Below, one piece after another: positions 123 to 37,664 of a stretch of DNA of 62,013 bases; the stretch's first letter is position 1, and each line of letters begins with the position of its first letter. The stretch covers positions 1 to 62,013 of the forward strand of contig JBDRVV010000015.1 of NCBI GenBank assembly GCA_039802005.1, read 5' to 3'. Source of the stretch: a candidate division WOR-3 bacterium. Lineage in GTDB: Bacteria; Hydrothermota; Tepidihabitantia; SM23-42; JAOAFX01. The notes under the pieces were generated by a model that saw only the letters and a list, made by a program, of their open reading frames with translations, did no database searches and was not told the origin of the DNA. The position numbers and the translations under genes were made by a program.

Positions 123-2306
123 CTAATTTTCTGGGGATTGCTTTTTCTTTAATAACTCTCTACTTGCCGCAGCAAGAACCTGGTCTTTCTGATTTGCTAT
201 TTTCTTCAGAATTTCTATGGATTTCGGAGTACCAATTTTTGCAAAGGCATTCAAAACCGATAACTTTGTTTCCTGAATTATGTCGCCTTTAAAAAATGGT
301 TTTTCATCTAAAATTGCTGTTAAATAATCAAGAATTGTATCATCACCTTTTTCGCCAAGAACTTCAATGATTGACCTCCTGAATTGTTCCTCTTTTTCAT
401 CCGGAATAGATTTACGCTGTTTCAACCAGGTGGCGACCTCAACCAGTTTTTCCTTTACATCTTCTTTGGGTAGCGACTTGATTGACAAAATCACCACCGA
501 ACGATGGGGACTATTTAATCCAAGTTTTATATATTCATAAATTTTTTCGCCATCAATTTTGTTTAAACTTTCAATAACTGCCAGTTGTACCCTTTCATCT
601 TTATCCTCCATCAATTTGCCAAGGTGTTCTACTGCTGTCTGTGCTTTTAATTCACCCAAAATATATATACCATTACGACGGACATACCACTCTTGTGAAT
701 TAAGCAATTTTACTATTTCGGGGATAATCTTTTCACCCATCCGGATAAGAACATCAATAATTTTCATCCTGACTGACTTATCTTCAGCATCCTTAAGGGT
801 ATCAATAAGCATTGGTATAGAGTAATCAGCCATCGCAATCAATGCATCCCTTGCTTCAACATACGAACCCTGATCCCATAAAAGGGAAACAAGCTCGGGT
901 AGATAATTCTGATCTTTTATCTCTGCAATAGTCCTTATAACAATATGTTTCTTATCAAGTAAAGATTTTTCTTTGCGCACAAGATGCCGGCTGAATTTTT
1001 TAGAAATAAATTGCACGATCTCTTCACGCTGATGTTTTTGTGCAAGAAAATATAAATTCTTAAGACTATCTACTATTTTTTTGAAAATACTTATATCCTC
1101 TTCTGTATCGCTCAATGTATCAAAACGGTCAACAAGTAATCTGACAAGTTCGTAATTCTTAGTTTCAAAAATTTTATTACTCAATTGCATTAGTTTGTCA
1201 ATTGCCTCTGTGCGGTTCTGTGCCGAGGAATCCCTCAACTGGGGGAATAAACTCCTCATCTGTTGTTCTAAATTCTTTTCCATTATTTTATCTGCAACAT
1301 CAGTTCCTTTCGTTGCCTTCATTTCACTCATCAATCGTGCAACAATCTTCTCAAAATTTATCTCCGGAACATTGACTCGTATTGATGAAAGTATATCAGG
1401 TAATCTTGTACCTGTAATATTCTTTAAGATATCAACGATTTCATCTTCCACATTTGGTGATTTTTCTTTTGCCTTAGTTGCAATGATATCAATAATGTCT
1501 TCATCAGCCATAGTAGGAATTAAACTTTTAAAAAGCAGTGCAAGTTTCTTATTTTCAGTTTTATAACGCACAATATTTTTCTTAATAGTAGGTGAAAGAA
1601 CTGCAAGCATACGCGAGAATATTACCGCATACTCATCCCATCTTTCTTCTCCATACTGGTCAGCAATCATCCCTGCGAGTTTCTCAAGTCCGGTTATTAC
1701 TTTACTCGTCTGAATTTCTGCTGATTCATTACCGAGAACACCAATTCCAGCAAGAAAACTGCCCAGCTGTTTTATCCGCTCTTCTTCAGTCCAGGTTTGT
1801 TGAGAAATCACAAGTGACTCCAGAAAATTCGTCCAGTCAAGTTGTTTTACTTCTTCTTCCGAAGAAACAACACCAACACGATATTTGTTTATTTTGATAC
1901 TCAAAATACCTCGTGCTCTCACCAGAGCAACGATATCTCCATAATCAGCAAGATCCGCTGGCGTAGCTGCCATTGCCAGGAAGAAAGCGCGTATTTCATC
2001 TTCCGGCGCATTTATATCAAACGTAATGCTTTTAACACCAAGTCGGATAAATCTATCCACAAGACTTTTTACAAGTGGTAATTTTTTCGATTCAAACCTA
2101 TCTTCGCCCATCATCAAAACATCCTCTATTACAACAACAGATACCGATTCTTGTTCTATTGGCAATTCTTTTAGTAAAATCTTTATTCGTTGAATTACCG
2201 GTTCCAGAGAGGGATGCCCCTTAGGGTAAATGCGACAGATATTAATACCGAGTCCAAGTTGTTTAATGAATTCAGTTTTAAATTCAATGGTTTGATCCTC
2301 GGGCAT
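123..2306 (-). CDS. HEAT-repeat protein with an N-terminal domain shared with two neighbours
   Basis: This 727-residue cytoplasmic protein has no signal peptide. Residues 1 to about 150 form an alpha/beta domain that resembles the N-termini of the two genes at 9775 and 11324. The C-terminal half (about 450-720) carries HEAT-type helical repeats, for example around VRRNGIYILGELKAQ and VQLAVIESLNKI, usually protein-binding scaffolds. The ATG at 2306 is preferred because GAGG lies 5 nt before it; a GTG at 2312 is the alternative. It follows the two cyclase-domain genes, separated by only a few bases, so it is probably their third operon member. A scaffold role in that signalling unit is inferred. 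Confidence 0.85.
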   Translation of the reverse strand: MPEDQTIEFKTEFIKQLGLGINICRIYPKGHPSLEPVIQRIKILLKELPIEQESVSVVVIEDVLMMGEDRFESKKLPLVKSLVDRFIRLGVKSITFDINAPEDEIRAFFLAMAATPADLADYGDIVALVRARGILSIKINKYRVGVVSSEEEVKQLDWTNFLESLVISQQTWTEEERIKQLGSFLAGIGVLGNESAEIQTSKVITGLEKLAGMIADQYGEERWDEYAVIFSRMLAVLSPTIKKNIVRYKTENKKLALLFKSLIPTMADEDIIDIIATKAKEKSPNVEDEIVDILKNITGTRLPDILSSIRVNVPEINFEKIVARLMSEMKATKGTDVADKIMEKNLEQQMRSLFPQLRDSSAQNRTEAIDKLMQLSNKIFETKNYELVRLLVDRFDTLSDTEEDISIFKKIVDSLKNLYFLAQKHQREEIVQFISKKFSRHLVRKEKSLLDKKHIVIRTIAEIKDQNYLPELVSLLWDQGSYVEARDALIAMADYSIPMLIDTLKDAEDKSVRMKIIDVLIRMGEKIIPEIVKLLNSQEWYVRRNGIYILGELKAQTAVEHLGKLMEDKDERVQLAVIESLNKIDGEKIYEYIKLGLNSPHRSVVILSIKSLPKEDVKEKLVEVATWLKQRKSIPDEKEEQFRRSIIEVLGEKGDDTILDYLTAILDEKPFFKGDIIQETKLSVLNAFAKIGTPKSIEILKKIANQKDQVLAAASRELLKKKQSPEN

Positions 2307-2308
2307 AA

Positions 2309-2950
2309 TCACCTCAGTTTTAATTTATATGCACGAACTGTAATATAATTCTCAATGACTTCTCCATATTCTTCGTATTCAAAAAAAGAACGAGTCGCCT
2401 GATAGAGCGATTCTCCCACCAAAACTACATTACTTTCTGCATTCTTTTGTAATACAAGACTCTTAGCAAAACCCTCGGTTACAAAGATTGCATTACGTAA
2501 ATCTCCTTTTATATTGTAGATAGATGCGGGTGCCATCTCTAGCCCACATTTTATTTTACATTCTTTTATTAGTGGAGAAATCTTATTGCATTCCTTAACT
2601 TTTTTAATTATCTCTTCAACCGCCATAATTGAGAGATGGGGTGCGTAACCACTTTCTCTGTTTAAACCAAATATACCAACAATTTCATCACCAATAACCT
2701 GATATAGTATGCCTCTATATTTCTCAATAATTGCATAGAAACTACCGAAGAGACTGTTTAAAAAGTTCATCACATCTTCTGCTGTCATGCTCTCACTTAA
2801 CCCGGTAAAGCCCGATAAATCAGCACGTAAAAAAGTTAATGGTAACTCCTCAAGTGGTAATGTTTTTTCTAAAGAAAGTATCTTACCACAATAAGGACAA
2901 AAATTTGCCTTTTCGGGCAAAGTATTTTTACATTCAGGACAATTTGACAT
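2309..2950 (-). CDS. zinc-ribbon, class III cyclase-domain protein (C1-like half)
   Basis: This is a 213-residue protein. Residues 4-21 are a zinc ribbon (CPEC...CPYC). Residues about 38-210 are a class III adenylate/guanylate cyclase homology domain. Both metal-binding aspartates are present: D44 in RADLSGFT and D88 in VIGDEIVGIFG. The substrate lysine position is Q84. The usual GDTVNxAARL segment reads FVTEGFAKSL, so the Asp, Asn and Arg are lost. It cannot form a complete homodimeric active site by the family rules. The adjacent upstream gene keeps exactly the missing residues, so a heterodimer is inferred. The start has GGAG 6 nt upstream and directly abuts the stop of the preceding gene. 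Confidence 0.9.
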   Translation of the reverse strand: MSNCPECKNTLPEKANFCPYCGKILSLEKTLPLEELPLTFLRADLSGFTGLSESMTAEDVMNFLNSLFGSFYAIIEKYRGILYQVIGDEIVGIFGLNRESGYAPHLSIMAVEEIIKKVKECNKISPLIKECKIKCGLEMAPASIYNIKGDLRNAIFVTEGFAKSLVLQKNAESNVVLVGESLYQATRSFFEYEEYGEVIENYITVRAYKLKLR

Positions 2951-5900
2951 TTAAATCTCCAGTAATCTGGTATATTCTTTCTTTTTAATAAAATATGAGC
3001 GATTTTCCGAGTTCAATCTTGACTTAATATCATCGAGAACATAAAGTGCCTTGCGTCCATAATAATGTGCCTGTTCTATCTCATTGTGTTCATAACAAAA
3101 TACTGCAAGTTTATACAATGCCTGTCCAATCAATGGTGGATATTTCAATGTCTCACTGATAGTAAGTGCATTTTTTAGATGATCCATCGCCTTTATCTCA
3201 TCAATATCAGAAAGTATTAAATAACAATAAAATTCAATTTCCTTATTATTTAACTTTTGTGCTAAATTAAAAGCACTGTTAACAAATTCCCTTGCCCTTT
3301 CAACCTGATTCAGGTTTATTAAACTTAAAGACTTCTTCAGATTAATTTCTGCCAGTAAATTATCACGTACCAATAAGGAAATTTTCTTATCAGCAATATT
3401 TAAATAACGATTGACTTCAGCCTCATTTTTTTGCATCGACTCTATTATTGCTAAATTTAGCACAGATTTTAATGTAATTTCAAAACCAATTTGCTCGGTC
3501 AGACTGAATGCCTCCAGAAAATATTGTTTGGCCTTTTGTAAGTTACCCACCTGATAATAATTCTCTCCAATTAAATATTTCAATTCTGCAAGATCGAGTA
3601 TTTCATTAACTTTTACTAAATCACTCTGTGCGTAGTCAAGGTACTCAAAACTGAGCTCATAATTTCCAAGATTTTGGTGCATTTTTGAAAGATTCAATAG
3701 ACACGGCAATTCACCTTCTTTATAATTATTATTGCGTGCAGTAACCCAAGCGAGATTATAATTCAACAAACTTTTTTCTGGTTCATTTCTCGACTGATAG
3801 AGTTTACCCAAACCAGTATATAGTAGTGTGAGTATATCATACATTTGGTCATTACAAGTTTCAATTGCGGAAATATATAATTCTTCCGACCTTTTAAATT
3901 CATTAAGTAAATAACAGGCAACGGCTAAACGCTCGGTAAAAAGAAGATTCCATCTTAATAAATTCAACCTGCGAGTATTTTCCATACCCTGTTCAGATAT
4001 TGTCTTCATTCGCTGGATATCGCCTTTCAATTCATAAAGGTCGCTGAGATTTAATTGACATTCAACTATTTTTTCAAGTTCAATTACCCCTGGATGTTCT
4101 TCTACAATTCTTAAAACAGTGTTGTAATAATTCATTGCAGGTTCAATCGAATATAAAGTTTTTGCTTTGTCTCCCGACAATTTGAAATAATAACTTGCCT
4201 TCTCAAATCTTTCACAGGATAGAAATTGTTGAGCGAGAACTTCGTAATATTCAGAAAGACAATTGGCATATATATTTTCGAGTAATTCGGCAATCCTTTT
4301 GTGTATATCTTTTCTTTTTTTAATTGGCAAAGTCGTATATACCGCATCTCTTAAAAGATTATGCCTAAAAATATATACCGGGTCTTCACTGTCACGAAAC
4401 TGGACGATGTAATCTTCTTTTATTAAGTAATCAAGCCGTTCCTGTATGTCGGGTACATTACCCAAAAGATTTGTAATAATCTTTCGAGTAAAACTGTATC
4501 CTACAACGGATGCATAATCAATCAACAAGCGATGGGCTGAAGAGAGAGCATCTATACCCGACATCACAACACCATAAAGGTCATCAAGGAAAGGTAATCG
4601 TCTTTCTTTTTCTAAATACCATTTACCTTCTTCATTTTGTTTGATAAGTTGAGTCCTCCTAACATTTCTTATCGTTTCAATAACAAATAATGGATTGCCT
4701 CCGGATATACGGAATATGAACTCTGCAAGTTTCTCATCCACCTCACAATTCAAAATGTGTTTAATCAAATCTTTAACGGCATCAAACGAGAGGGGGTTTA
4801 AGTTGATGATATCAAGAGGCTGATTTATTTTACCACTTATGTCCTCTATAAAATTCACCATCAATAAAAAAATTGGAAAATCCGAAAGTTCATTAACAAA
4901 ATAATTCACCAACATTTTACTCAAATTGTCTGCGCGATTGAATTCCTCAAAAATTAAAACTAATGGTTTTCTTTTACAAATTACCTTGAGAACATTCTTT
5001 ACTGCACTAAATATCTCCTCTTGTATCTTATGTAATTTCTCTCCCCAAATCCGTCTCATATCCGTTGTAAAAAGATGTTTTAAACCTTGTGCGTCCTGTA
5101 ATGTCAGATTATTGTTTTCTATAAATTCATCAATTTTTTTCTCAATTTTTTTTACATCATCATATTCATCCAGACTCAAAAGTTCACGGAAGAACGTCTT
5201 AAATGGATAATATGGGGTATGGATCTCTATCGCACAATAACTTTCGTAAACATAATAATTTCTGTCATGTTTGATAAACTCTATAAATTCTTCTTTAAGT
5301 CTGGTTTTACCGATACCCATCTGACCTGTTATTGCACAAATTTTCAGAGTTTTTGTTTCATTCACCATTTTTGCAGCATTTACCAATTTTTCAAATTCTT
5401 TCTCCCTTCCTAACAATGGAAATTTGGATGCAACAATTTTCCTTTTTTCTTTTAATAACCCTTTTAGTTTATAGATTTTGATGGACCCAGTTCTGCCCTT
5501 TACTGTTCGTTCTCCCACAAAATCAACATCTACGATATTAGAAACTCCTTCGTAGGCAGAACTACTTAAGTATATTTCGTCCGGCGGACATATTTGAGTC
5601 AGCCGTGCTGCTACATTAACTGTATCGCCAATAATAGTTAAATAAGAAAGTTCCTCTATTACATAACCAAAAAATACCCAACCAGTATTCACCCCGAATG
5701 AAATACGCCAGTCTCCAATTTCTTTTTTTCCAATTTTATTTTGATAATAATCTCTTATTGCTAAGATGCACTCGATTGCTCGCTCAGGGTCATCGCGATG
5801 TGTCCTTGGAATGCCAAAAGCAGCAAGAATGCGGTTATCAGGGAAAATCTTATTAGCAGTACCTTCGTATTTTTTTATTATATTCTCCAACTCATCCATT

Positions 5901-6133
5901 GTTTCAGCAAGATAAATTGCATTCAGACGGGCTTTTGACTTATCTATAACCTTTGCCGTATTAATAAAATTAACAAAAAATAATGTTGCGATACGAGATT
6001 CACCACCCCATAATTTTACATGTTCGCTATCAATTTGAGATTCTACTGAATGAACAAGCTTTGCTCCACAATTAGGACAAAATTTGTATGACTCTAAAAT
6101 TTTTACATAACCACAAAAACTACACTCCCCCAT
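2951..6133 (-). CDS. zinc-ribbon, cyclase-domain (C2-like), STAND-type ATPase and TPR protein
   Basis: This 1060-residue protein has four parts. A zinc ribbon spans residues 4-23 (CSFC...CPNC). A class III cyclase homology domain spans about 48-225. A STAND/AAA-type ATPase follows, with Walker A GQMGIGKT near residue 270. A long TPR array fills the C-terminal half. In the cyclase domain the first metal aspartate is replaced (LFFVNFINT instead of LFADxxGFT). K95 and the D170-N173-R177 set in IGDTVNVAARL are intact. This is the C2-like complement of the downstream gene, which it abuts. By family analogy it is an ATP-switched signalling protein with TPR sensing or docking; its ligand is unknown. 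Transcription is probably leaderless from the adjacent promoter. Confidence 0.9.
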   Translation of the reverse strand: MGECSFCGYVKILESYKFCPNCGAKLVHSVESQIDSEHVKLWGGESRIATLFFVNFINTAKVIDKSKARLNAIYLAETMDELENIIKKYEGTANKIFPDNRILAAFGIPRTHRDDPERAIECILAIRDYYQNKIGKKEIGDWRISFGVNTGWVFFGYVIEELSYLTIIGDTVNVAARLTQICPPDEIYLSSSAYEGVSNIVDVDFVGERTVKGRTGSIKIYKLKGLLKEKRKIVASKFPLLGREKEFEKLVNAAKMVNETKTLKICAITGQMGIGKTRLKEEFIEFIKHDRNYYVYESYCAIEIHTPYYPFKTFFRELLSLDEYDDVKKIEKKIDEFIENNNLTLQDAQGLKHLFTTDMRRIWGEKLHKIQEEIFSAVKNVLKVICKRKPLVLIFEEFNRADNLSKMLVNYFVNELSDFPIFLLMVNFIEDISGKINQPLDIINLNPLSFDAVKDLIKHILNCEVDEKLAEFIFRISGGNPLFVIETIRNVRRTQLIKQNEEGKWYLEKERRLPFLDDLYGVVMSGIDALSSAHRLLIDYASVVGYSFTRKIITNLLGNVPDIQERLDYLIKEDYIVQFRDSEDPVYIFRHNLLRDAVYTTLPIKKRKDIHKRIAELLENIYANCLSEYYEVLAQQFLSCERFEKASYYFKLSGDKAKTLYSIEPAMNYYNTVLRIVEEHPGVIELEKIVECQLNLSDLYELKGDIQRMKTISEQGMENTRRLNLLRWNLLFTERLAVACYLLNEFKRSEELYISAIETCNDQMYDILTLLYTGLGKLYQSRNEPEKSLLNYNLAWVTARNNNYKEGELPCLLNLSKMHQNLGNYELSFEYLDYAQSDLVKVNEILDLAELKYLIGENYYQVGNLQKAKQYFLEAFSLTEQIGFEITLKSVLNLAIIESMQKNEAEVNRYLNIADKKISLLVRDNLLAEINLKKSLSLINLNQVERAREFVNSAFNLAQKLNNKEIEFYCYLILSDIDEIKAMDHLKNALTISETLKYPPLIGQALYKLAVFCYEHNEIEQAHYYGRKALYVLDDIKSRLNSENRSYFIKKKEYTRLLEI

Positions 6134-14560: not shown

Positions 14561-17500
14561 TTAAGTTTGTAATAAATTTTTGAAATTTTTGAATTCAGCG
14601 TATATCTTCTTTTTCAGAAAAATATCCCGTGGTTCTCCCTCGGGTATTTTACTTAAAATTTCCTCAAGTAACTTATCAGCGACAGATAAATGATTCTTTG
14701 ATTCAGTTATCTTCGTTAAATAATAATAAACCTGCGCCAGATAAAAATTTATTACAAATTTGGTTTCGTTATCATATTCAACCTTTTCATATCCAAGGGC
14801 AGTTTTTAGCAGATCAAGTGCTGTGTATAAATGTGTAACGAGTAATTTTTTTTCAATAATTGATTGTTTTATTTTCACCTTTGCCCTGCCAATTATACAA
14901 GTTAGTTTACTTTCAGGATCAAATAATTCTTCACACCTTTTTTCTAATTCCTCAAACATATTAAATGCCTTTTCATAATTACCTTTTTCTGTCTCCAATT
15001 CAGCAAGACTTATCATTACTTCATTTGCGTTCCTAACACTTCCTAATTTAACAAATATTTCATAAGCATTTTTAAAATAATATTCTGCTTTTGGTAGGTC
15101 ACCCTTTTCAAGATAAATGTTACCAAGGCCATAATTTCCGTAGCCATTACCAAGTTGATTGTTTATCTGGGCATTTATATTTAAATATTCATTATATTTT
15201 TCTTCTGCCTTATCTAATGCACCAAGTTGATAATATGTGTTGCCGATATTGTAAGTAGCAATCGCACGGGCAAGGAGATTACCTGTTTTTATATCTATCT
15301 CAAGCGATTTGTTAAGATATTCAAGCGCCTTATAGTAATCTGATTGACGCGTATAATAACCACAAATATTATTGTATATAACCGCCATACCAGGTATATC
15401 CTCTAACATTTCGTATATCTTTAATGCCTTACTATACGCCTCAAAAGATTTTTCATATTCACCAGTATGAGAATAGATTGAACCAAGTTGATTATAAACC
15501 CTTGCGATTTTTTTCTTGGTTTGAATATTGGGGGCATCTTTCACATTTGTTAGTATCTGTTCAAGAACATTACGTGCCTGTTTTAATTCGCCCTTGAGAT
15601 AGTATATCCAGGCAATACCAAGCCAGGTGTCGAACTTTTCCTCCTCGGAGAAATCTATAAGTAATTTTAATGATTCGTCATAAATTTGCAGCGCTTTTTC
15701 ATAGTCACTGATTCTCTGATATGCATCTGCCATTTGATTAAGTATTTTGACCTTATCAAGTGTGCTATGTGCTATTTTAAATGCCCTTTCATAAAGCTCA
15801 ATAGCATCTTCGCAACATCCTATTCTACTATATATTCCTCCCAATTTATACATTGTATCAAAAATAGTTTTGCTATCTTCGTCGGTATCAGGCTTTAATT
15901 CCTTAAGTACATATAAATAATACGAAATTGCTTCCATATTTGCGTAGCATTTTTGTGCATTTTCGCCCGCTTTCAAAGCATAATAAATTGCCTTATCTTT
16001 ACAATCTGCTTTCGCATAATGTTCAAAAAGAACATCGTAAAATTCTGCAATCCGTTCAGAAAATAATGATTCGATAGTTTTCGCAACCAAAAGATGTAAT
16101 TCTTTTACTTTCTTATCAGGAATACTTTTATAGATTGACTCTCGAACCAGTGCATGATTGAATGCATAATCCTGGTGATTATTTGTGTAAATGTAGCCAA
16201 TTTCTAAAAGTCGGTTTATTAGATTATCAAGATTATCCCAGAATCGTGTGAATCCCTGCAATACCTTTTTATTAAATGTCCTTCCTAAAACTGCCATTTC
16301 AGAGAGTAAATCTCTCAATTCGGGACTCAATGTATCATATGACGCCTGTATTATACCTTCAATTGTATAAGGAATATCAAATTCAATCTCTCTTTCGCTC
16401 GCCAGCCACTCATTGCCACGCCGATAAATTATACCCTTAGAAATTAAAAATTTGATTAATTCTTCAAGAAAGAATGGGTTGCCGCCTGCATCACTTACTA
16501 TCTTTTCTACTAAATCTTCGGGCAATTTTGGTATTTTTAGTAAATTTTTTGACAGTTCCAAGGTTTCTTCTCTGGTTAAAGGTTTAAGATAAATTTCATT
16601 TATTTTAATTTCCTTTTTTAATTGTTCTTTTATCTGCCAGAATGGTTTATTCTTTTCGGGACGTGAAATTAAAATTATGAGTGCTTTAATTCCGCTGTGT
16701 GTCTGCAAGAAAAATCGCAGTAACTCAAGAGTTGATTCGTCAGAAAGATACAAATCGTCGATGCAATAAACAGCAGGATTTTTTTGTGCATAATTCTCTA
16801 AAATCTGACTCACGGCATTAAAAATCTGCAATTTTATTTCTTCGGGTTTTAAATATTTAACCTTTTCTTCGTATTTTGCAGCAAGTTTAATATTAAAAAG
16901 TTCTGCGATATAAGGGAATATATCCTCTGCCTTTTCACCCATAAGTCTTTCAACTGTAGTTAAAAGTTTTGCCATCATCGACATTTCGCTATCTTCAGTT
17001 CTTATGTCAAAAATTTGTTTAAGAATTTCCAAAAATGGATAATAAAGTGTTTCACGATAGGGCGAACACCTACCAATACACCAGTTTATATTCTTTACCT
17101 TTTCCAGCGCCATACTCAATGACTGCGTGAATAGTTCTTCAAGTAACCGTGACTTTCCCACGCCAGCTTCTCCAAGTATAAGAACAATATTACCCTTTCC
17201 TAAAAATAGTTCTTCAATAAAATGGGAAAGAATAACCAATTCCTGTTTTCGGTCCACAAGTGGTGAACTTAAACCTTCAATTCCCCTTCTCTTTACAAAT
17301 CCGGTCTTCTGCCTCTGTACATTATACACAATTATTTCCTGTTTTGACCCCTGTGGTAAAAATCGCAAAGGTTCTGAAAACTCAAAAACCGGTTTAGTAA
17401 TTTGATAGACTTCATCGCTCACAAGCAATTCGTTTTCCTTTGCATATTCCATTATCCTTGCGGCAAAATTGACCGCATCGCCCATTACGGTATATTCGGA

Positions 17501-17872
17501 TTTAATCTTTGAACCAACCGATGCAGCATATACCCGTCCTAAGTTTATGCCGATCCTTAAACCCAAAGGTTTCTTGATTTTTTCTTTTAGTTTTGAAATC
17601 TGATTGAGCATCAATAAACCTGATTTGATCGCCCTTTCCGGGTCCTCTTCATGGGCAGATGGTACACCAAATGTTGCCATTAAAACTCTACCTTCATGTT
17701 TGTCAATGTTTCCTTCATACAACTTAATCGCCTCGTCCAATTCATTAAATACAGTTTTTATAAATTCAACATATTCTTCGGTATCCAACTCTTGCTTCCA
17801 GGAATCTATCTGCGTAACTTCAGCAAACAGAATTACACAGGGTTTTAACCTCGCTTCTCTATCTTTTTCCAT
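14561..17872 (-). CDS. cyclase-domain (C2-like), STAND-type ATPase and TPR protein
   Basis: This 1103-residue protein has an N-terminal class III cyclase homology domain (about 10-190), a STAND/AAA ATPase with Walker A GEAGVGKS near residue 233, and a TPR array over the C-terminal half. Both metal aspartates are gone: LFAEVTQI has E18, and KHEGRVLMATFG has R62. The partner-side residues K58, D132, N135 and R139 (VMGDAVNFAARI) are intact. This is a C2-type half and needs a metal-binding partner. The upstream gene, which overlaps it by 28 nt, has the opposite pattern. No Shine-Dalgarno site is visible, consistent with translational coupling. Confidence 0.9.
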   Translation of the reverse strand: MEKDREARLKPCVILFAEVTQIDSWKQELDTEEYVEFIKTVFNELDEAIKLYEGNIDKHEGRVLMATFGVPSAHEEDPERAIKSGLLMLNQISKLKEKIKKPLGLRIGINLGRVYAASVGSKIKSEYTVMGDAVNFAARIMEYAKENELLVSDEVYQITKPVFEFSEPLRFLPQGSKQEIIVYNVQRQKTGFVKRRGIEGLSSPLVDRKQELVILSHFIEELFLGKGNIVLILGEAGVGKSRLLEELFTQSLSMALEKVKNINWCIGRCSPYRETLYYPFLEILKQIFDIRTEDSEMSMMAKLLTTVERLMGEKAEDIFPYIAELFNIKLAAKYEEKVKYLKPEEIKLQIFNAVSQILENYAQKNPAVYCIDDLYLSDESTLELLRFFLQTHSGIKALIILISRPEKNKPFWQIKEQLKKEIKINEIYLKPLTREETLELSKNLLKIPKLPEDLVEKIVSDAGGNPFFLEELIKFLISKGIIYRRGNEWLASEREIEFDIPYTIEGIIQASYDTLSPELRDLLSEMAVLGRTFNKKVLQGFTRFWDNLDNLINRLLEIGYIYTNNHQDYAFNHALVRESIYKSIPDKKVKELHLLVAKTIESLFSERIAEFYDVLFEHYAKADCKDKAIYYALKAGENAQKCYANMEAISYYLYVLKELKPDTDEDSKTIFDTMYKLGGIYSRIGCCEDAIELYERAFKIAHSTLDKVKILNQMADAYQRISDYEKALQIYDESLKLLIDFSEEEKFDTWLGIAWIYYLKGELKQARNVLEQILTNVKDAPNIQTKKKIARVYNQLGSIYSHTGEYEKSFEAYSKALKIYEMLEDIPGMAVIYNNICGYYTRQSDYYKALEYLNKSLEIDIKTGNLLARAIATYNIGNTYYQLGALDKAEEKYNEYLNINAQINNQLGNGYGNYGLGNIYLEKGDLPKAEYYFKNAYEIFVKLGSVRNANEVMISLAELETEKGNYEKAFNMFEELEKRCEELFDPESKLTCIIGRAKVKIKQSIIEKKLLVTHLYTALDLLKTALGYEKVEYDNETKFVINFYLAQVYYYLTKITESKNHLSVADKLLEEILSKIPEGEPRDIFLKKKIYAEFKNFKNLLQT

Positions 17873-20800
17873 TCTTCAATTATCTCCTTGTTGTTAGGTA
17901 AATTCAAAAATTTATTTTGATATTCAAAATTTTTAATCTTTTGGGCACGAGAAACAACAATGTCATAAGAAAATTGCAAAAATTTGTATGCCTCCTTCGT
18001 TCTATTAATTTTATTCAGAATTTTATAATGGGTGTAGTAAATTTGTTCTTTATCTCCTTCAATCTCCTGTATACTTAAAAGTTTTTCAACCGCCCAGCTT
18101 GAGTATTGAAATGCCTTTTTTATATCATCTCTTTTTAACCATAAAAGTGCAAAATTGGATTGTGCAATTATCTCGTATGATGGATTCTTCACTTCCCGTG
18201 CCAGAGAAAGTGCAATTTTAAGTTCTTCCTCGGCATAATTTAAATGCCCCACCTGTAAATACACAATCCCTAATAGATTATGATAATATGCCAGATATTC
18301 TTTGGAGCCAATCTCTTTCGAAATTTCAATTGCGTTCTTAAGATACCCAACTGCCTCATCATATTTACCACTTTGTAGAGAGCAGGTGGCAATATTTCCA
18401 TAACGGATTGCCATTCCAGATTTGTTCTTTATCGACTCGTCAATTTGTAAGGCTTGCATAAAGCATTCGAAGGCCTTCTCAATATCGCCTAATACCCCGT
18501 AAATATGCCCGATATTTGACAATCTTATTGCCTCTCCTTTTCTATTTAATTTCCTACGATCTATCTCTAACGCCTCTTGAAAATTTTTTAATGCCTCTTC
18601 ATACTCACCAAATTGGATATGGACTCCCCCTATATTAGAAAGTATCTGCGCAACAAAAAGTGAATCGTTAATCTTACGAGCAATATTAAGCGCATCTTTA
18701 TAATAAATTAGGGATTGTTCAAATTTGTTTAAATAATAATAAACATTAGCAATGTTCACATTCAATCTACTCAATGCGATTTTATCCTCTCCTTTTTCGT
18801 ACATTGTCTTTGCTTTTGAATAATAAATAAGCGCCTGCTCTTTATCCCCAAGTTTCCAGTAACAGAGTCCAACGCCCTTTAAAATATTTCCTATGAGCTT
18901 ATAATTATCACTTTCTTTCATAGAATCTAATGCCAAATTAAAAATTCTCAAAGCCTGAGAAATTTCATTCTTATTATAATAATTAATGCCCATTCTTTCA
19001 AGTATCAGTGTTTCTTGTTTTTCTTTATTCAATCTATTTAAAATTTCTAATGCACTATCATAATCTGCGATTGACTCAAAATATTCAGCCTGTTTCAACA
19101 TTGCCTTCCGTTGATAATCCAAATTATTTATTTTTACCGCAAGTTTATACAAATCATTTATTGTCTTTAATTCTTCGTTTCTATCGCCAATCATATGAAG
19201 CAAATTTATTTTTTTAATTAATATATCACATTTTTCATCTTCATTTGTTGTTACCAGGTCTAAAAGTTCGTTATAAACCGTTAAACATTTCTCATAAGAA
19301 AACTCTTTTTCAAGATAATCTGCCCATTTTATTAAAAAGAGATATGCATCTTTTATTTCGCCTGCTTCTTTTAAATGAAATGCAACAAGTCCATAACTTC
19401 CCAATTGATTTGCATTCTCTTTCAATGCATCTGCAATCTTTAAATGAATTTCCTGACGATTTTTTTTTGTTAACCGTGTCCCTATACATTCACGCAGGGT
19501 ATCCGAGTTAAAATATATTTTTGAATCTTTGTAATATAATAGCCCTCTATTAAGACAGTAATTTAAGAATTCATTTGCATCTGGTAACACTTTTAGAATT
19601 ATTTGATAATCTATTTCATCATTTATGAGACTTAAAATACATAATCCTTTTAAATAATTCCTCGGTATTGAATCAACAATTGCCTCAGTAATTTCTTTAA
19701 TTCTCCAAGAATTTGGCAATTTTTTTAATTCACTACCCATAGGAAATGAATTCTTAATTAAAATACTTATTTCCATGGCATAATAAGGATTACCACGGCA
19801 CAAATTTACAATATCTTTTTTAAATTCATCGGTAATAAAATAATCCTTAAGATGATAAGCAACTATATCTAAAATAGCACAATCAGGCAATGGCTTAAGT
19901 TCTATAAATTCAACACTTTTTTTTATATCCCCTATTATTTTCTCTATAATCGGTAAATTTTTATCCCGTACTTCAATAATAATAGTAATTTTGTTATTTT
20001 GAATGTTTCCTTTCAAATATTCAAGAAAACTCAGCGAATGTTCATCAATAACTTCAACATTCTTTAAAATAATTATTACCGGTTTTGTTTTTGATGATTG
20101 TATAAACACGCTTAGCATCTCCCGGAATAATTTAAATTTATAATTCTCTTCACCCGGAGGAAGAGTAAAATCTGGGGAAATCTGATATACAATTTTCATA
20201 AAGGCTGAGCAAGGGATAAGATAATCTTGTTCGTTAAAAGTTGTTTCATATACATTAAATATATTGTTTTTGTTAATTCTATTTATAGCCTCATTTATAA
20301 AAACTGTTTTCCCAATTCCCATATCGCCCGAAATGATTATAAATTTAGGTATCTTTAAAAGTGCGTTATAAATTTTTTCAAACTCTTCACTCCGATATTC
20401 AAAGAAAAAAGGAAAAGCAACACCCGGAATAATTTTTTCCTTAACTTGAAAACCCTCCTTGGATTTCTCAAACAAAAAGTAATCTTTATTGATATCATAA
20501 CATTTTTCATTAACGAGAATCTCCCCTTTTTCTGCAATTTCCTCCAGATGGGAAACTTCATCAAATAGATGTCCGTATATTTCTTCTCCCAATATCAGAA
20601 TCTCGCCGGTTCCAACCCCAATATGGACATCTACTTGATAACGCATTTTCTTCATTGCCTCCTGAATCCTTAAGGCACTCCATAATGCATTACTTGAATC
20701 ATTTCCATAAGAACGCGGGAACCCGAATATGGCAACCACTCTGTCTCCCTCATGTCTGATTATTGTCCCATAATGGCTATGGATTATTAAATCAATATTA

Positions 20801-20913
20801 TTAAAACACTCATTTATAAAATCAGTTGTTTTTTCCGCCCCAATCTTATTAGTTAATTCAGTAAATCCAGAGATATCAGCGTAAAGAAGCGTTGCCAATC
20901 TCTTTTCATTCAC
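17845..20913 (-). CDS. cyclase-domain (C1-like), STAND-type ATPase and TPR protein
   Basis: This 1022-residue protein begins with a class III cyclase homology domain (about 5-165), then a STAND/AAA ATPase (Walker A GDMGIGKT near 198), then a TPR array with many YYxKAxxxYE-type units. Both metal aspartates are present: D13 in YADISGFT and D57 in HEGDRVVAIFG. The lysine position is R53. The GDTVNxAARL segment reads GHLFDEVSHL, so Asp, Asn and Arg are lost. It is the C1-type complement of the downstream gene. The start is GTG at 20913, 6 nt from a TATAAT box, so the mRNA is predicted leaderless. Confidence 0.9.
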   Translation of the reverse strand: MNEKRLATLLYADISGFTELTNKIGAEKTTDFINECFNNIDLIIHSHYGTIIRHEGDRVVAIFGFPRSYGNDSSNALWSALRIQEAMKKMRYQVDVHIGVGTGEILILGEEIYGHLFDEVSHLEEIAEKGEILVNEKCYDINKDYFLFEKSKEGFQVKEKIIPGVAFPFFFEYRSEEFEKIYNALLKIPKFIIISGDMGIGKTVFINEAINRINKNNIFNVYETTFNEQDYLIPCSAFMKIVYQISPDFTLPPGEENYKFKLFREMLSVFIQSSKTKPVIIILKNVEVIDEHSLSFLEYLKGNIQNNKITIIIEVRDKNLPIIEKIIGDIKKSVEFIELKPLPDCAILDIVAYHLKDYFITDEFKKDIVNLCRGNPYYAMEISILIKNSFPMGSELKKLPNSWRIKEITEAIVDSIPRNYLKGLCILSLINDEIDYQIILKVLPDANEFLNYCLNRGLLYYKDSKIYFNSDTLRECIGTRLTKKNRQEIHLKIADALKENANQLGSYGLVAFHLKEAGEIKDAYLFLIKWADYLEKEFSYEKCLTVYNELLDLVTTNEDEKCDILIKKINLLHMIGDRNEELKTINDLYKLAVKINNLDYQRKAMLKQAEYFESIADYDSALEILNRLNKEKQETLILERMGINYYNKNEISQALRIFNLALDSMKESDNYKLIGNILKGVGLCYWKLGDKEQALIYYSKAKTMYEKGEDKIALSRLNVNIANVYYYLNKFEQSLIYYKDALNIARKINDSLFVAQILSNIGGVHIQFGEYEEALKNFQEALEIDRRKLNRKGEAIRLSNIGHIYGVLGDIEKAFECFMQALQIDESIKNKSGMAIRYGNIATCSLQSGKYDEAVGYLKNAIEISKEIGSKEYLAYYHNLLGIVYLQVGHLNYAEEELKIALSLAREVKNPSYEIIAQSNFALLWLKRDDIKKAFQYSSWAVEKLLSIQEIEGDKEQIYYTHYKILNKINRTKEAYKFLQFSYDIVVSRAQKIKNFEYQNKFLNLPNNKEIIEEWKKIEKRG

Positions 20914-20919
20914 ATTTTG

Positions 20920-20947
20920 ATTATATAAAAATTATTAAAAAATTCAA
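20920..20947 (-). promoter_or_regulatory. promoter of the second cyclase pair
   Basis: TTGAAT and TATAAT have a 16-nt spacer. The GTG start is 6 nt after the -10 box. It is divergent from the hslU promoter, with 19 nt between the two -35 boxes. Confidence 0.7.
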
Positions 20948-20994: not shown

Positions 20995-21001
20995 ATAAGT
21001 G

Positions 21002-32761: not shown

Positions 32762-34699
32762 TTATTTGCCGATAAAGACGAATTTGCCTCTTTTTAAATC
32801 ATTACCTTTTTTTTGCACGACATAGAAATAGACACCTGATTCTACTGGCAAATTCATGTGGTCAGTCCCATCCCAGATTAACCTTTGATTCAGATTATCA
32901 AATTTCTTTATCAGCCTTCCCGTAGCATCATAAATTATCAAAGATGCATCCTTATCAGGAATCTGGGCGAACGCAAATTCAATACTTCCCGTTGCAGGAT
33001 TACTATGCAGTTTAACAAATGATTCGATCTGTTTTTCCCTATCCGATTCGGTTATACCAACTGGATTATTCCCGATTGTGAGCGAGAAATTAATTCCCTG
33101 GGTTATCGTACAGGTATCATCCTTAAATGTCAGTATCAATTTCAATGGTTTTACTGCACCGGGTGTCGCATTGCGACTGCATCTTACAACAAATCTTGAG
33201 GCACTATTATTGCCCGTGCTCTTACGGTATATCTTCGGAAAAGTAGCGGTTCCGGTCTGGACAACAATCTGTGTATCAAGGGAGATGAGTTGTGCAGTGA
33301 TATTGTATGCGGAATCAAGGGGATGGATTGCACGGTTTCTGATCCTCATCCATAAATGGGATGTCTCATTTGGGTCAAGTTGACCTGTTCCATTTCCCAG
33401 TGAAGTATCAGCAACGACCGGTTGGAGATTATCAAAGAATACACCGGCAATCTTGGTGAAATAGATATTAACCGGACGGCATTGGTTTATGTTATTTTGA
33501 ATTACCGTATAATTATTATATCCATCCCAGAAATCAGTCTGGTTTGTCTCAATGCTGAAGGCATAAGTGACAAACTTAGGCACACCATTATGGAGGGTAT
33601 CCTTCATCTCCCATTCAATTGAAGTTCCATTCGCCGCATAAAGAACCCGATATATCGGACCTGTGCGCGCCGCAGAAAATCCGTTCTTCACCCGCATTGA
33701 GTCAAGAATCTCCCAAACCGTGACCGAATCTGGAATCGGCTCGGCACTACCGGAATAACCCCAGACACAGAGATTATATGCCCCATAAGAATGGTAATCA
33801 ATCTGGGTCCTTATTTTTTTGGGTAAGAAGAAATCACGTGCATTCTGAGTCTCTATCTCTGAAAATCTTGAAGGACCGCGATAAGCATCAGAAGTTACCG
33901 ATGGGCTTGAACCAACATCATTATAACCCCATTTATAACCATAATTACGATTTAAATCTACACCCGCAGTTGATGAACTCTGGCCTGAATATAAATGCCG
34001 GTTCTTACGGATATTACTCGTTGCACCACCAGAATCAGAATTGTATCTATAACCATCTGGATTCATCACCGGTATAAAATAAATTTCACGATTATTTACA
34101 AACCAGGTGACAAGAGAATCTGTGCCATAATTAGTTAGTAAATACTTTATGTAATCAATGCAAAGGGTCGTTCCCATAGGCTCCCTTGCATGGGTTGCAC
34201 CATTGAAACAGACTGCGGGCTCCATTTCATCAACGAGGGGATTATCCGAAATTTTGAAAGCAACCATCTGCAACCCTTGGTAGGAATTACCCGCACTATA
34301 GTATCGGGTAATATTTGGAAATGAGTTTGCAAGGGTTTGTAATGTATCCCTCATCTCCCAGTAGGTGTAGAAATAGCCAAAGTCCCTTAATATCTGTGGG
34401 TCTCTTGAACCCGCCATCTCGTAGAATTTTTCCGCAATATCTTCATAGGTGATAACGGTCTTAAATCCGAGTGCCCTTATCTGCTCATATTGTTCTTTTG
34501 TTGTATTTAGTACCAGATAGTATTCACCATTATCTGCTTGTTGCACCGTGCAGATATCCAGTTCACCAAAGAGCGTCCCCATCTTTGAAAACAATTCATC
34601 CGCATCCTTGAAATATAGCCATACCTCCATCTTGTTTGACGCCATTCCAAGCGAAACCAAAAGCATTCCGAGACTTAAGCATCGGATAATATGTTTCAT
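32762..34699 (-). CDS. secreted M14 zinc carboxypeptidase with C-terminal sorting-type domain
   Basis: The 645-residue protein has a signal peptide (MKHIIRCLSLGMLLVSLGMA) and an N-terminal prodomain-like region. The M14 peptidase domain (about 105-410) shows ATHAREPMG (zinc His and Glu), IDYHSYGAY (zinc His) and the catalytic Glu in FSIETNQTDF. Beta-sandwich segments follow, then a final domain of about 75 residues (LHSNPATGSIEFAF ... YDATGRLIKKF ... SGVYFYVV) of the type used as sorting/FlgD-like tails. It probably degrades external peptides together with the S8 protease upstream. The start has AGGAGG. Confidence 0.93.
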   Translation of the reverse strand: MKHIIRCLSLGMLLVSLGMASNKMEVWLYFKDADELFSKMGTLFGELDICTVQQADNGEYYLVLNTTKEQYEQIRALGFKTVITYEDIAEKFYEMAGSRDPQILRDFGYFYTYWEMRDTLQTLANSFPNITRYYSAGNSYQGLQMVAFKISDNPLVDEMEPAVCFNGATHAREPMGTTLCIDYIKYLLTNYGTDSLVTWFVNNREIYFIPVMNPDGYRYNSDSGGATSNIRKNRHLYSGQSSSTAGVDLNRNYGYKWGYNDVGSSPSVTSDAYRGPSRFSEIETQNARDFFLPKKIRTQIDYHSYGAYNLCVWGYSGSAEPIPDSVTVWEILDSMRVKNGFSAARTGPIYRVLYAANGTSIEWEMKDTLHNGVPKFVTYAFSIETNQTDFWDGYNNYTVIQNNINQCRPVNIYFTKIAGVFFDNLQPVVADTSLGNGTGQLDPNETSHLWMRIRNRAIHPLDSAYNITAQLISLDTQIVVQTGTATFPKIYRKSTGNNSASRFVVRCSRNATPGAVKPLKLILTFKDDTCTITQGINFSLTIGNNPVGITESDREKQIESFVKLHSNPATGSIEFAFAQIPDKDASLIIYDATGRLIKKFDNLNQRLIWDGTDHMNLPVESGVYFYVVQKKGNDLKRGKFVFIGK

Positions 34700-34720
34700 A
34701 AACCTCCTTCTGTTAAAATT

Positions 34721-34748
34721 ATTATAATAAAAAAATAAAAAAAATCAA
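34721..34748 (-). promoter_or_regulatory. promoter of the M14 peptidase gene
   Basis: TTGATT and TATAAT have a 16-nt spacer made almost only of T and A. The same T-rich stretch is the U tract of the terminator just upstream. Confidence 0.55.
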
Positions 34749-34768
34749 GGGGGAGATTGCTCTCCCCC
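34749..34768 (-). terminator. rho-independent terminator of the S8 protease gene
   Basis: A perfect 8-bp stem GGGGGAGA/TCTCCCCC has a 4-nt loop. On the minus strand it is followed by TTGATTTTTTTT. It lies 10 nt after the protease stop codon. Confidence 0.9.
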
Positions 34769-34778
34769 TTTTTGTTTC

Positions 34779-37664
34779 TTACTTCAACAGGATTCCGCGT
34801 GTATTGAACGATTTATCTTCAATCTGGAGGTTGAAGAAATATACACCGGATGCAACTTCCCGTCCGAGTTCATCATCACCCGACCATTTTGCAGTATAAA
34901 CACCAGGGGTCTTCGTTTCGTCAACGAGTGTCCTTATGACCTGACCGATGGTATTATAAACTTTTACAGTTATCTTTGCCTTCTTATCCACCGTATAGAA
35001 AATATTAACCGAATTTCTTGCTGGATTCGGCGCCAGACTTATCCTTTTTGTTCCCGGGTCAACATAGTTCGTAAATTCCTGAACTCCAATCCAGTTCTTC
35101 ATCTTCGGCTGTTTAGTTGTAAACTTTATTGCCCTACCGGCAACGAGCGGTGCCGCACCGGTGTCATAGACTTTATTAAAGAGATAGCTCATGCCGTATT
35201 TTTTCAACGAATCCTGCTGTCCGACCGTGCAGCTCGTCGGATTAGTGACCCGCCGATATTGAATTACAATATCATTGCGCATTCCTGGACCAGCAGTAGT
35301 GGAATCATAGATTATATACTGGAATGACTGGAACATATTGGCAAGGGTAATGAAGGAATCACACTGGATTATCAGACGGTGATTTGTAGCATCATTATAA
35401 TACCACCAGGTAGCAGGTGAAGAACCATTGAGGTCATCCCAGAATGCCGCGACCATATTAGGCACTGAACTCTGTGAGCCATAATCCATCATCTTTGGTA
35501 ATATGCTATTGTATTGAACAGTGCTCGTCTGCCTGCCGAATGCAATCCAGCCATTGGAACAGACTGAAATACTATCCGTAGTTGCACCGCCAAGCCTCTT
35601 TGCATAATGTCTGATTGTGAAGGGTGAACGAATTCTCAGCGTGACATCATTTCCACCGGTTCCAATGCTCGTTCCGGGACCGCCCTGGTTGGCATTTATG
35701 TTTATCCAGTTATAAATTGGCGCCTCAGTGTAGAAGGAGTCTGTATTATCAATCATAAAATAGCCAAAACTATCCGGACCACAGATTGAACCCATTCTAA
35801 GTTGATAATACAGTTTTCTTGTATAAGTTCCGGCAGTTAGTTCTAATTCAAATGGCACCAGCGTACCCAGTTGAATAAGTGTATCTGCTTGGAGTACAAA
35901 TGGGTCGGCTCCATTATGACCCTTTGCCTTAGGATTGATGTTTCCAAAAGTTGCAGTTGAATCAATGATTGTTATGCGTGGGCTTGTAGTCCTTAATTTA
36001 CCAGTTACATTTGTCGCCGTGGCAGTTCCCAAATTGATTATTGTGTCAACGAGGGTAATGCGCTCAGAAGGATCAAAGTACCCATTACCATTGCCATTCG
36101 GTGCTGGGTCAAGAACGACCGTGCCGAATTCCGCAAGGCGCAAATCAGGCAGTGAACCAGAAGCAGGTGTCATATCTATTGCCCGCTTTGCACGGATTCT
36201 TCCCGCACCATACATGGTATCCTTGCCAGCAGTTCCAAGGTCGAGGGCACTGAACTGCATGATACTATCAATCTGGGCAACGGTTAGATTCGGATTCTTT
36301 GAAAGTAACAAAGCAGCAAGTCCTGCACAATGTGGTGTCGCCATGGAAGTACCGCTCATTAAAGTGTAACCGTTGTTACTGCTATATAGACATGACCTTA
36401 TATTAACTCCGGGGGCAGCAATATCCGGTTTCAAAATTCCAGGTCCCGGTCTAAACGGGTAGTCCCAATACCATGGTGCATCTTCCCAGCACGAAGGACC
36501 GCAGGAAGAAAAACTGGCAAGCGCATTGAGACTATCGGTTGCCGCAATAGAGATCGCACCCGCAAGCCTACCCTGTGCTTCTGATGGATGATGCCAGGGT
36601 GGAGGAACATCACCTGGGCAGCGGAGATTATAGGGAACAGGACAGTAAGTATAACCTCTCTCATTACCTGCAGCAATAAAATATGGTATACCCGCAAGTG
36701 CCACATTCGTTACTGCTTTACGCCACATACTCCTTCTTGGTGTCCAGGCAACATACCAGCCCAAAGACATTGATATCACATCTGCACCATGGGTTGGCGA
36801 AAGAGGTGGAGCGATACAGAACTGCATCGCATCAAAAACATTTTGCTCGGAAATAGTATCAGGCATTGGATAGGCGATGGATGTTCTAACCCTGCAAACC
36901 AATATTGAACATTGAGGTGCTACACCACAGGTGTCACCAGCTGAACCATCTGATGCAATAGTGCCTGCGCAGTGCGTACCATGACCATTAGCATCCATCG
37001 GGTTATTATTATTATTTTCAAAATTCCAGCCATGATAAGGATAATTTGGGTCGGTCCACATATGGTTACTTAAGTCAAGATGGTTGTAATTAACTCCCGT
37101 GTCAATGATACCAACAATTACACCCTGACCTCTATATCCGGCTGCCCAGCAGGAATCAGCAGCAATAAGTTTTAGATTCCATACAATTCCTCGGCTATCA
37201 AGTACATCAACCGGCACCGGCTCGCCATAAGTCAATAAAATATTCTCACTGACAATATAGGGATAAGCAATAAATGCGACATCATTTCTATTCGCTATTT
37301 CATTTATTATATCTGGCGTTGCCTTGCAATAAAGTGCATTTATAATCCACATAGATTTAATCTCAGAAACCTTATTGGATTGGGTCTGAAGCGTAAGGTA
37401 ATTGACAAGCGGTTCCTGAGTCCTTGCGGAAAGTTCTTTTAAGTAATTTACCACAGGATATCTCTGTTCGCGTCTGGGTAAATCAGCGACGAGATTTCGC
37501 AGGTAGTCTTCATCTGATTGCTCATTAAAGACCACCAGTATCTCAACCTGGTCATTGTCTTTCACTGAAGCGATGACCTCTTCAAGTTGTGGGTCAATCA
37601 AAGCCTTGGCTTCTACTACCCCCACAACTGAAATTAGCGCTATTAATATGTATACTGATCTCAT
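34779..37664 (-). CDS. secreted S8 (subtilisin-like) serine protease with C-terminal sorting-type domain
   Basis: The 961-residue protein has a signal peptide ending near VVGVVEA, an inhibitor-like prodomain (about 25-145), and an S8 catalytic domain (about 165-500). The triad is the Asp in GIIDTGVNYNHLDL, the His in NGHGTHCAGTIA and the Ser in MSGTSMATPHCAGLAALL. Beta-rich domains follow. The last 80 residues (LAPNPARNSVNIFYTV ... YNTIGQVIRTLVDE ... ASGVYFFNLQ) are a FlgD-like or type A sorting-type tail, similar to that of the M14 neighbour. Shared tails suggest a shared export or anchoring route, but no type IX secretion gene is in the window. Confidence 0.95.
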   Translation of the reverse strand: MRSVYILIALISVVGVVEAKALIDPQLEEVIASVKDNDQVEILVVFNEQSDEDYLRNLVADLPRREQRYPVVNYLKELSARTQEPLVNYLTLQTQSNKVSEIKSMWIINALYCKATPDIINEIANRNDVAFIAYPYIVSENILLTYGEPVPVDVLDSRGIVWNLKLIAADSCWAAGYRGQGVIVGIIDTGVNYNHLDLSNHMWTDPNYPYHGWNFENNNNNPMDANGHGTHCAGTIASDGSAGDTCGVAPQCSILVCRVRTSIAYPMPDTISEQNVFDAMQFCIAPPLSPTHGADVISMSLGWYVAWTPRRSMWRKAVTNVALAGIPYFIAAGNERGYTYCPVPYNLRCPGDVPPPWHHPSEAQGRLAGAISIAATDSLNALASFSSCGPSCWEDAPWYWDYPFRPGPGILKPDIAAPGVNIRSCLYSSNNGYTLMSGTSMATPHCAGLAALLLSKNPNLTVAQIDSIMQFSALDLGTAGKDTMYGAGRIRAKRAIDMTPASGSLPDLRLAEFGTVVLDPAPNGNGNGYFDPSERITLVDTIINLGTATATNVTGKLRTTSPRITIIDSTATFGNINPKAKGHNGADPFVLQADTLIQLGTLVPFELELTAGTYTRKLYYQLRMGSICGPDSFGYFMIDNTDSFYTEAPIYNWININANQGGPGTSIGTGGNDVTLRIRSPFTIRHYAKRLGGATTDSISVCSNGWIAFGRQTSTVQYNSILPKMMDYGSQSSVPNMVAAFWDDLNGSSPATWWYYNDATNHRLIIQCDSFITLANMFQSFQYIIYDSTTAGPGMRNDIVIQYRRVTNPTSCTVGQQDSLKKYGMSYLFNKVYDTGAAPLVAGRAIKFTTKQPKMKNWIGVQEFTNYVDPGTKRISLAPNPARNSVNIFYTVDKKAKITVKVYNTIGQVIRTLVDETKTPGVYTAKWSGDDELGREVASGVYFFNLQIEDKSFNTRGILLK

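Follow-up and report, generated by a model that had tools for sequence, protein, structure and literature searches.

The window analyzed in the current work is a stretch of 62,013 nucleotides (nt) from an uncultured WOR-3-type bacterium, and coordinates given without a locus name are positions within that window. On its minus strand lie two large, overlapping genes, here called A and B, each encoding a protein with an N-terminal class III cyclase domain followed by a P-loop ATPase-like region and tetratricopeptide repeats (TPRs). At the sequence level, the two metal-binding Asp residues, the Asn and the Arg of a class III catalytic site are supplied by the A+B pair jointly and by neither chain alone. 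The two putative subunits are termed C1-like and C2-like after the cyclase domains of the mammalian enzymes with which they are compared below. The features of both genes, including the overlap between them, are as follows (aa, amino acids; ORF, open reading frame; AF2, AlphaFold2; pLDDT, its per-residue confidence score):

17845..20913, minus strand: gene A, putative C1-like metal-donor subunit with cyclase domain, P-loop ATPase-like region and TPRs, 1022 aa, GTG start (ORF, profile search, orthologues)
20434..20913, minus strand: A cyclase domain, residues about 1-160, with D13, D57 and R53 inside it (profile, AF2 pLDDT 85, class III cyclase fold match)
20875..20877, minus strand: A metal Asp D13, present in 9/9 orthologues (alignment)
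20743..20745, minus strand: A metal Asp D57, present in 9/9 orthologues (alignment)
20755..20757, minus strand: A R53 at the base-recognition Lys position, Arg in 9/9 (alignment)
20545..20574, minus strand: A degenerate loop GHLFDEVSHL (residues 114-123) replacing GDxVNxAARL, with a deletion of ~8 residues just before it (alignment)
19996..20397, minus strand: A ATPase region, residues 173-306, Walker A GDMGIGKT intact and Walker B IIILKNVEVID degenerate (profile, motif reading)
17914..19293, minus strand: A TPR region, residues about 541-1000 (profile search)
17884..17889, minus strand: AAGGAG, Shine-Dalgarno-like, inside A and 11 nt upstream of the ATG of B (sequence)
17845..17872, minus strand: overlap of 28 nt between the 3' end of A and the 5' end of B, of equal length in 5/5 complete A-B junctions of relatives (sequence)
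14561..17872, minus strand: gene B, putative C2-like base/transition-state subunit with cyclase domain, P-loop ATPase and TPRs, 1103 aa, ATG start (ORF, profile search, orthologues)
17306..17854, minus strand: B cyclase domain, residues 7-189, lacking both metal Asp (E18, R62) (profile, AF2 pLDDT 91, fold match)
17699..17701, minus strand: B base-recognition Lys K58, present in 8/8 (alignment)
17456..17482, minus strand: B GDAVNFAAR (residues 131-139), with D132, N135 and R139 each present in 8/8 (alignment)
16691..17260, minus strand: B P-loop ATPase (AAA_16), residues 205-394, Walker A GEAGVGKS and Walker B CIDDLYLSD intact (profile, motif reading)
14864..15766, minus strand: B TPR region, residues about 703-1003 (profile search)

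The metal positions of B are occupied by E18 and R62, and the division of the site could be followed through nine A sequences (seven extending beyond the cyclase domain and two truncated) and eight B sequences. A complete site in a single chain is absent from this set: the A sequences lack the Lys and the Asn in 9/9 cases and the Arg in 8/9, and the B sequences lack both metal Asp in 8/8. The lost positions drift, being occupied in the nine A sequences by P, Y or H (Asp position), D or E (Asn position) and L, H, Q, R or Y (Arg position), and in the eight B sequences by E, Q or K and by K, R or T (the two metal positions). Every residue that the first-pass annotation of this DNA had named in A (D13, D57, R53 and GHLFDEVSHL) and in B (E18, R62, K58, D132, N135 and R139) was found as named, and both ORFs lie where it had placed them. 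The combination of Lys plus Asp is the ATP signature of class III cyclases; K58 and D132 are kept in all eight B sequences and match adenylyl rather than guanylyl cyclase residues, which points to ATP as the predicted substrate of the pair.

The cyclase assignment is supported by profile scores for Guanylate_cyc (PF00211) of 51.2 bits for A and 73.4 bits for B, both above the Pfam cut-off of 21.9, and by AF2 monomer models of the two domains, which are confident (pLDDT 85 and 91, respectively) and find their best matches in the PDB among class III cyclases (E 3.7e-14 and 2.3e-18). The AAA_16 profile is present in both chains, although the score of A (32.1 bits) is marginal, being slightly below the cut-off of 32.6, and many TPRs were detected in both proteins. 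The earlier description of A and B as two large ATPase-TPR proteins can thus be retained for the TPRs and for B, which has full Walker A and B motifs, but not in full for A, whose Walker B is degenerate, so that only B looks like a complete ATPase. Since the ATPase of B keeps both Walker motifs and that of A keeps Walker A only, the two arms may be unequal, with B acting as the switch and A as its partner. The GTG start of A lacks a clear ribosome-binding site and lies 6 nt downstream of a TATAAT hexamer (window 20913-20925), and its transcript is possibly leaderless; a divergent gene with AAA_2 (ClpX/HslU-like) domains begins beside this start, at 20999.

In order to determine how the pair is distributed, 147 genomes of the phylum were surveyed with profile thresholds of E<=1e-60 for A and E<=1e-180 for B. 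A was detected in 9/147 and B in 7/147 genomes, with both present in seven, and all nine belong to a single order. Complete adjacent A-B pairs occur in five relatives (G002, G003, G008, G013 and G024); together with the genome of the window this gives six complete loci, in all of which the overlap of 28 nt is identical and the frames are open for more than 1000 codons. The split is retained at about 50% identity between cyclase domains. Conservation of the split among homologues, on which the first-pass annotation had made its proposal depend, was borne out, a complete motif being absent from all A and B orthologues of the phylum. When A is compared with its more distant orthologues, the cyclase domain is 53-54% identical and the ATPase region 24-30%, whereas in B both regions are near 50% identical. 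The metal-donor domain of A is, judged by these identities, under selection and not decaying, because it is the best-conserved part of the protein.

Across the relatives the pair has been inherited, modified by duplication of B, and deleted as a unit. Two relatives (G008 and G024, loci L052 and L053) have an A-B-B (A-B1-B2) arrangement, which suggests that one metal-donor A may serve two B partners where B is duplicated. Two genomes contain A without B, and these orphan genes were considered and rejected as evidence against pairing. One of them (G023) has a contig that ends inside A; the other (G015) encodes a chimera of 262 aa in which the first ~219 residues of A are joined to the last 57 of B (L056:7773-8561 = L142:6965-7753), and would stem either from a deletion that occurred naturally in the pair or from a chimeric assembly. 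If it is not an assembly chimera, A and B would have been lost together in that genome, because one deletion spans both. The possibility that A and B are a single tandem protein interrupted by a frame break was likewise rejected, as the same two ORFs, the overlap of 28 nt and a conserved B start are found in six complete loci.

As a control, the A profile was run against some 85,000 prokaryotic genomes, and the best 80 loci were listed as a sample. Two of these 80 are A orthologues, and they place the relatives of the window in candidate division WOR-3 / Candidatus Stahlbacteria. Of the 78 other listed loci, 77 keep both metal Asp, the Asn and the Arg in one chain within the matched domain. 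A complete single-chain domain is therefore, as far as this sample indicates, the norm for the cyclase-ATPase-TPR architecture, and division of the site sets the A-B pair apart.

The assignment of A to C1 and B to C2 was also approached by similarity to mammalian adenylyl cyclases. A matched only C1 regions of ADCY5, ADCY8, ADCY9 and ADCY10 (ADCY10 42-196, ADCY8 416-519, ADCY5 469-562 and ADCY9 393-502), and the best matches of B were C2 regions (ADCY10 288-422, ADCY8 1074-1144, ADCY5 1072-1228 and ADCY9 1163-1225).

Taking sequences, split, conservation, synteny and domain folds together, we infer with a probability of about 0.8 that A and B together make up an obligate heterodimeric class III adenylyl cyclase, in which one site is active and the other dead. 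As each protein holds half of the site and the division is conserved in all relatives that carry the pair, catalysis probably depends on the joining of A and B. A and B would be made together through translational coupling of the overlapping genes, and their N-terminal cyclase domains would pair head to tail. In the resulting active site, D13 and D57 of A would hold two metal ions, K58 and D132 of B would read the adenine, and N135 and R139 of B would handle the triphosphate and the transition state, as suggested by their equivalents in mammalian soluble adenylyl cyclase (sAC, ADCY10). The mirror site, in which E18 and R62 of B face R53, H115, D118 and H122 of A, is predicted to be dead and could be regulatory; the conserved acidic residue at A 118 and the mostly basic residue at B 62 might, speculatively, be joined in a salt bridge or line a regulatory pocket. 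A:A and B:B dimers would accordingly be inactive, and the formation of cyclic AMP (cAMP) would require both proteins. Gating of the enzyme in response to a partner or ligand would probably fall to the C-terminal ATPase and TPR parts, and the cAMP would be read by proteins that bind cyclic nucleotide monophosphates (cNMPs). Since the genome encodes three such cNMP-binding proteins, a reader of its own is plausible.

Several observations weigh against this reading. The C1/C2 assignment by similarity is imperfect, because the isolated B domain also weakly matches C1 constructs of ADCY5 and because in soluble guanylyl cyclase A matches beta1 and B matches alpha, and so the assignment rests on residues. 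The sequences of the relatives derive mostly from metagenome assemblies; the A-B pairs number only eight, too few for coevolution analysis; and the A-B-B arrangement in two relatives indicates that partnering of A and B is not necessarily one-to-one. In addition, the genome itself encodes at least four complete single-chain cyclase proteins, which are conceivable partners of A or B. On this basis A and B could be promiscuous subunits that lend their half-sites to complete cyclase-ATPase-TPR paralogues, whether in addition to or in place of pairing with each other. Such a scheme would draw on the presence in the genome of several complete cyclase domains with this architecture, on the two relatives with one A and two B copies, and on the nearest paralogue of B, a complete protein of 1172 aa on contig C3 that is 41% identical to B. 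We nevertheless consider it unlikely, since A and B are inherited and lost jointly with a fixed overlap, complete paralogues are present in many genomes that have no pair, and the genes for these paralogues are without any link to the A-B pair.

The incompleteness of either chain alone would also suit a pair of pseudocyclases, in which an A:B (or A:A or B:B) dimer does not turn over ATP and the domains serve the ATPase-TPR parts as a nucleotide sensor or dimerization module. This is quite improbable, given that the retained residues are invariant and form the exact set for one site while the other positions drift, that the cyclase domain is the most conserved part of A, and that so precise a partition would serve no obvious purpose in a non-catalytic sensor. 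Degenerate catalytic motifs often mark decay, and the Walker B of A is degenerate as well, so that A and B might instead be decaying duplicates whose complementarity is coincidental; that explanation is contradicted by conservation and has a negligible probability, as frames of more than 1000 codons remain open in six loci, with the same split at about 50% identity, an identical overlap and invariant half-sites. Heterodimeric catalysis by A and B remains the preferred reading.

Divided cyclases are not confined to A and B in this genome. The window holds a second divided pair (2309-6133, minus strand), composed of a C2-like protein of 1060 aa (2951-6133) followed by a C1-like protein of 213 aa (2309-2950), and a HEAT-repeat protein of 729 aa (123-2312, minus strand) completes a tight three-gene operon with it. 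As in the A-B pair, one chain supplies the metal Asp and the other the Asn/Arg loop: the C1-like chain keeps both metal Asp and lacks the loop, and the C2-like chain keeps GDxxN..R and has lost the first metal Asp in nearly all orthologues. The second pair differs from A-B in its reversed gene order, in its C1-like partner, which is a bare cyclase domain, and in the HEAT-repeat protein that follows. Its activity is less certain, because the base Lys of the C2-like chain is not conserved (it is lost in many relatives, which makes the substrate uncertain as well) and because an Asp lies one residue away from the second metal position. Of the 27 genomes of the order that were searched (that of the window included), 25 carry the bare C1-like gene; the order of the three genes is kept in every case where the contig extends far enough to show it, and a diverged version occurs in a genome of another family (G027).

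A third format is provided by a fused C1-C2-ATPase protein of 900 aa on contig C38 (L013:3363-6065), which is collinear with human sAC (E 5.7e-26), has Ala at the position of Lys334 of sAC in its C2 domain and is followed by a separate TPR protein of 518 aa; orthologues of the fused protein occur in four relatives. In trees of the short cyclase domain each subunit type forms one clade, and the deep order, on which one or several origins of the splits would depend, is not resolved; groupings of all C1-like domains, of all C2-like domains or of A with B are not rejected. It is conceivable, as a tentative proposal that we would not favor at present, that heterodimeric class III cyclases arose within the order in several coexisting formats (the A-B pair, the second pair with its HEAT-repeat protein and the fused sAC-like chain), that an obligate A:B enzyme acts as a two-input gate in which one A may serve two B, and that the common split is either a bacterial source of the C1/C2 division of sAC or the outcome of repeated convergence.

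Two further observations concern neighboring and paralogous loci. The gene for the C3 paralogue of 1172 aa is directly followed by a large ORF with a GGDEF-like start (L016:2399-8004), and a link between cAMP and cyclic di-GMP signalling at that locus is possible. Elsewhere in the window, two adjacent genes (32762-37664, minus strand) encode secreted peptidases, a subtilase and an M14 carboxypeptidase, with type IX secretion-like C-terminal domains.

Among known systems, the mammalian enzymes ADCY1-9 have one active and one degenerate site at the C1:C2 interface, with the metal Asp on C1 and the base-recognition and transition-state residues on C2. The division between A and B is the same, with A in the place of C1 and B in that of C2; the difference is that ADCY1-9 are single membrane-bound chains regulated by G proteins, whereas A and B are two soluble chains with ATPase and TPR parts.

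A closer likeness is found in sAC. In the human enzyme, D47 and D99 of C1 bind metal, K334 of C2 reads the base, and N412 and R416 of C2 act on product release and on the alpha-phosphate (PMC12867704), so that D47/D99 correspond to D13/D57 of A and K334/N412/R416 to K58/N135/R139 of B. On their C-terminal side the cyclase domains of sAC are followed by a P-loop ATPase region (PMC12802110), as is the cyclase domain of both A and B (marginally in A). In sAC, however, C1 and C2 belong to one chain, whereas A and B are separate proteins that both carry an ATPase-like region and TPRs. Nor are the bicarbonate residues K95/R176 of sAC conserved, their equivalents being R53 of A (9/9) and the variable position 122; bicarbonate control of the pair is for that reason not predicted, and the bicarbonate pair is often missing from nonmammalian sAC too (PMC12867704). 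The comparison gives good support to the view that the A-B pair would work like sAC, yet it is not sAC by the criterion of a tandem chain.

Two gene products also form one functional class III cyclase in soluble guanylyl cyclase (alpha/beta) and in the fungal RGC/NeoR rhodopsin cyclases (PMC8815786), which differ from the A-B pair in being eukaryotic, in making cyclic GMP and in carrying other sensor domains, A and B being bacterial, with ATP-type residues and overlapping genes. The class III cyclases known from bacteria are homodimers, and the division into C1 and C2 is regarded as a trait of higher eukaryotes (PMC8815786). A bacterial heterodimeric class III cyclase was not found in the open full-text literature searched, which yielded eukaryotic cases only; this absence is weak evidence, and subscription literature was outside the scope of the search. 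The remark in the first-pass annotation that coupled bacterial genes for such an enzyme are unusual has to be qualified for the genome itself, which holds the second divided pair and the fused C1-C2 protein.

With the bacterial enzymes CyaB (P. aeruginosa), CyaC (Spirulina) and Rv1625c, which are homodimers with a complete site per chain and two equal sites, A and B have the cyclase fold in common. The nearest sequence relatives are the widespread bacterial cyclase-ATPase-TPR proteins, which have the whole architecture of A and B. Both these groups carry the full site in one chain and act as homodimers, whereas A and B each lack half of it. If a bacterial C1/C2 enzyme is indeed encoded by two conserved genes and equipped with the ATPase-TPR arms of the sAC family, it would offer a natural separable system: each half-site, the dead site and each regulatory arm could be altered or left out on its own, and the transition from a homodimeric to a heterodimeric enzyme could be examined. 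The need for two different proteins to join, which is probable for A and B, would be shared with animals but not with the well-studied bacteria.

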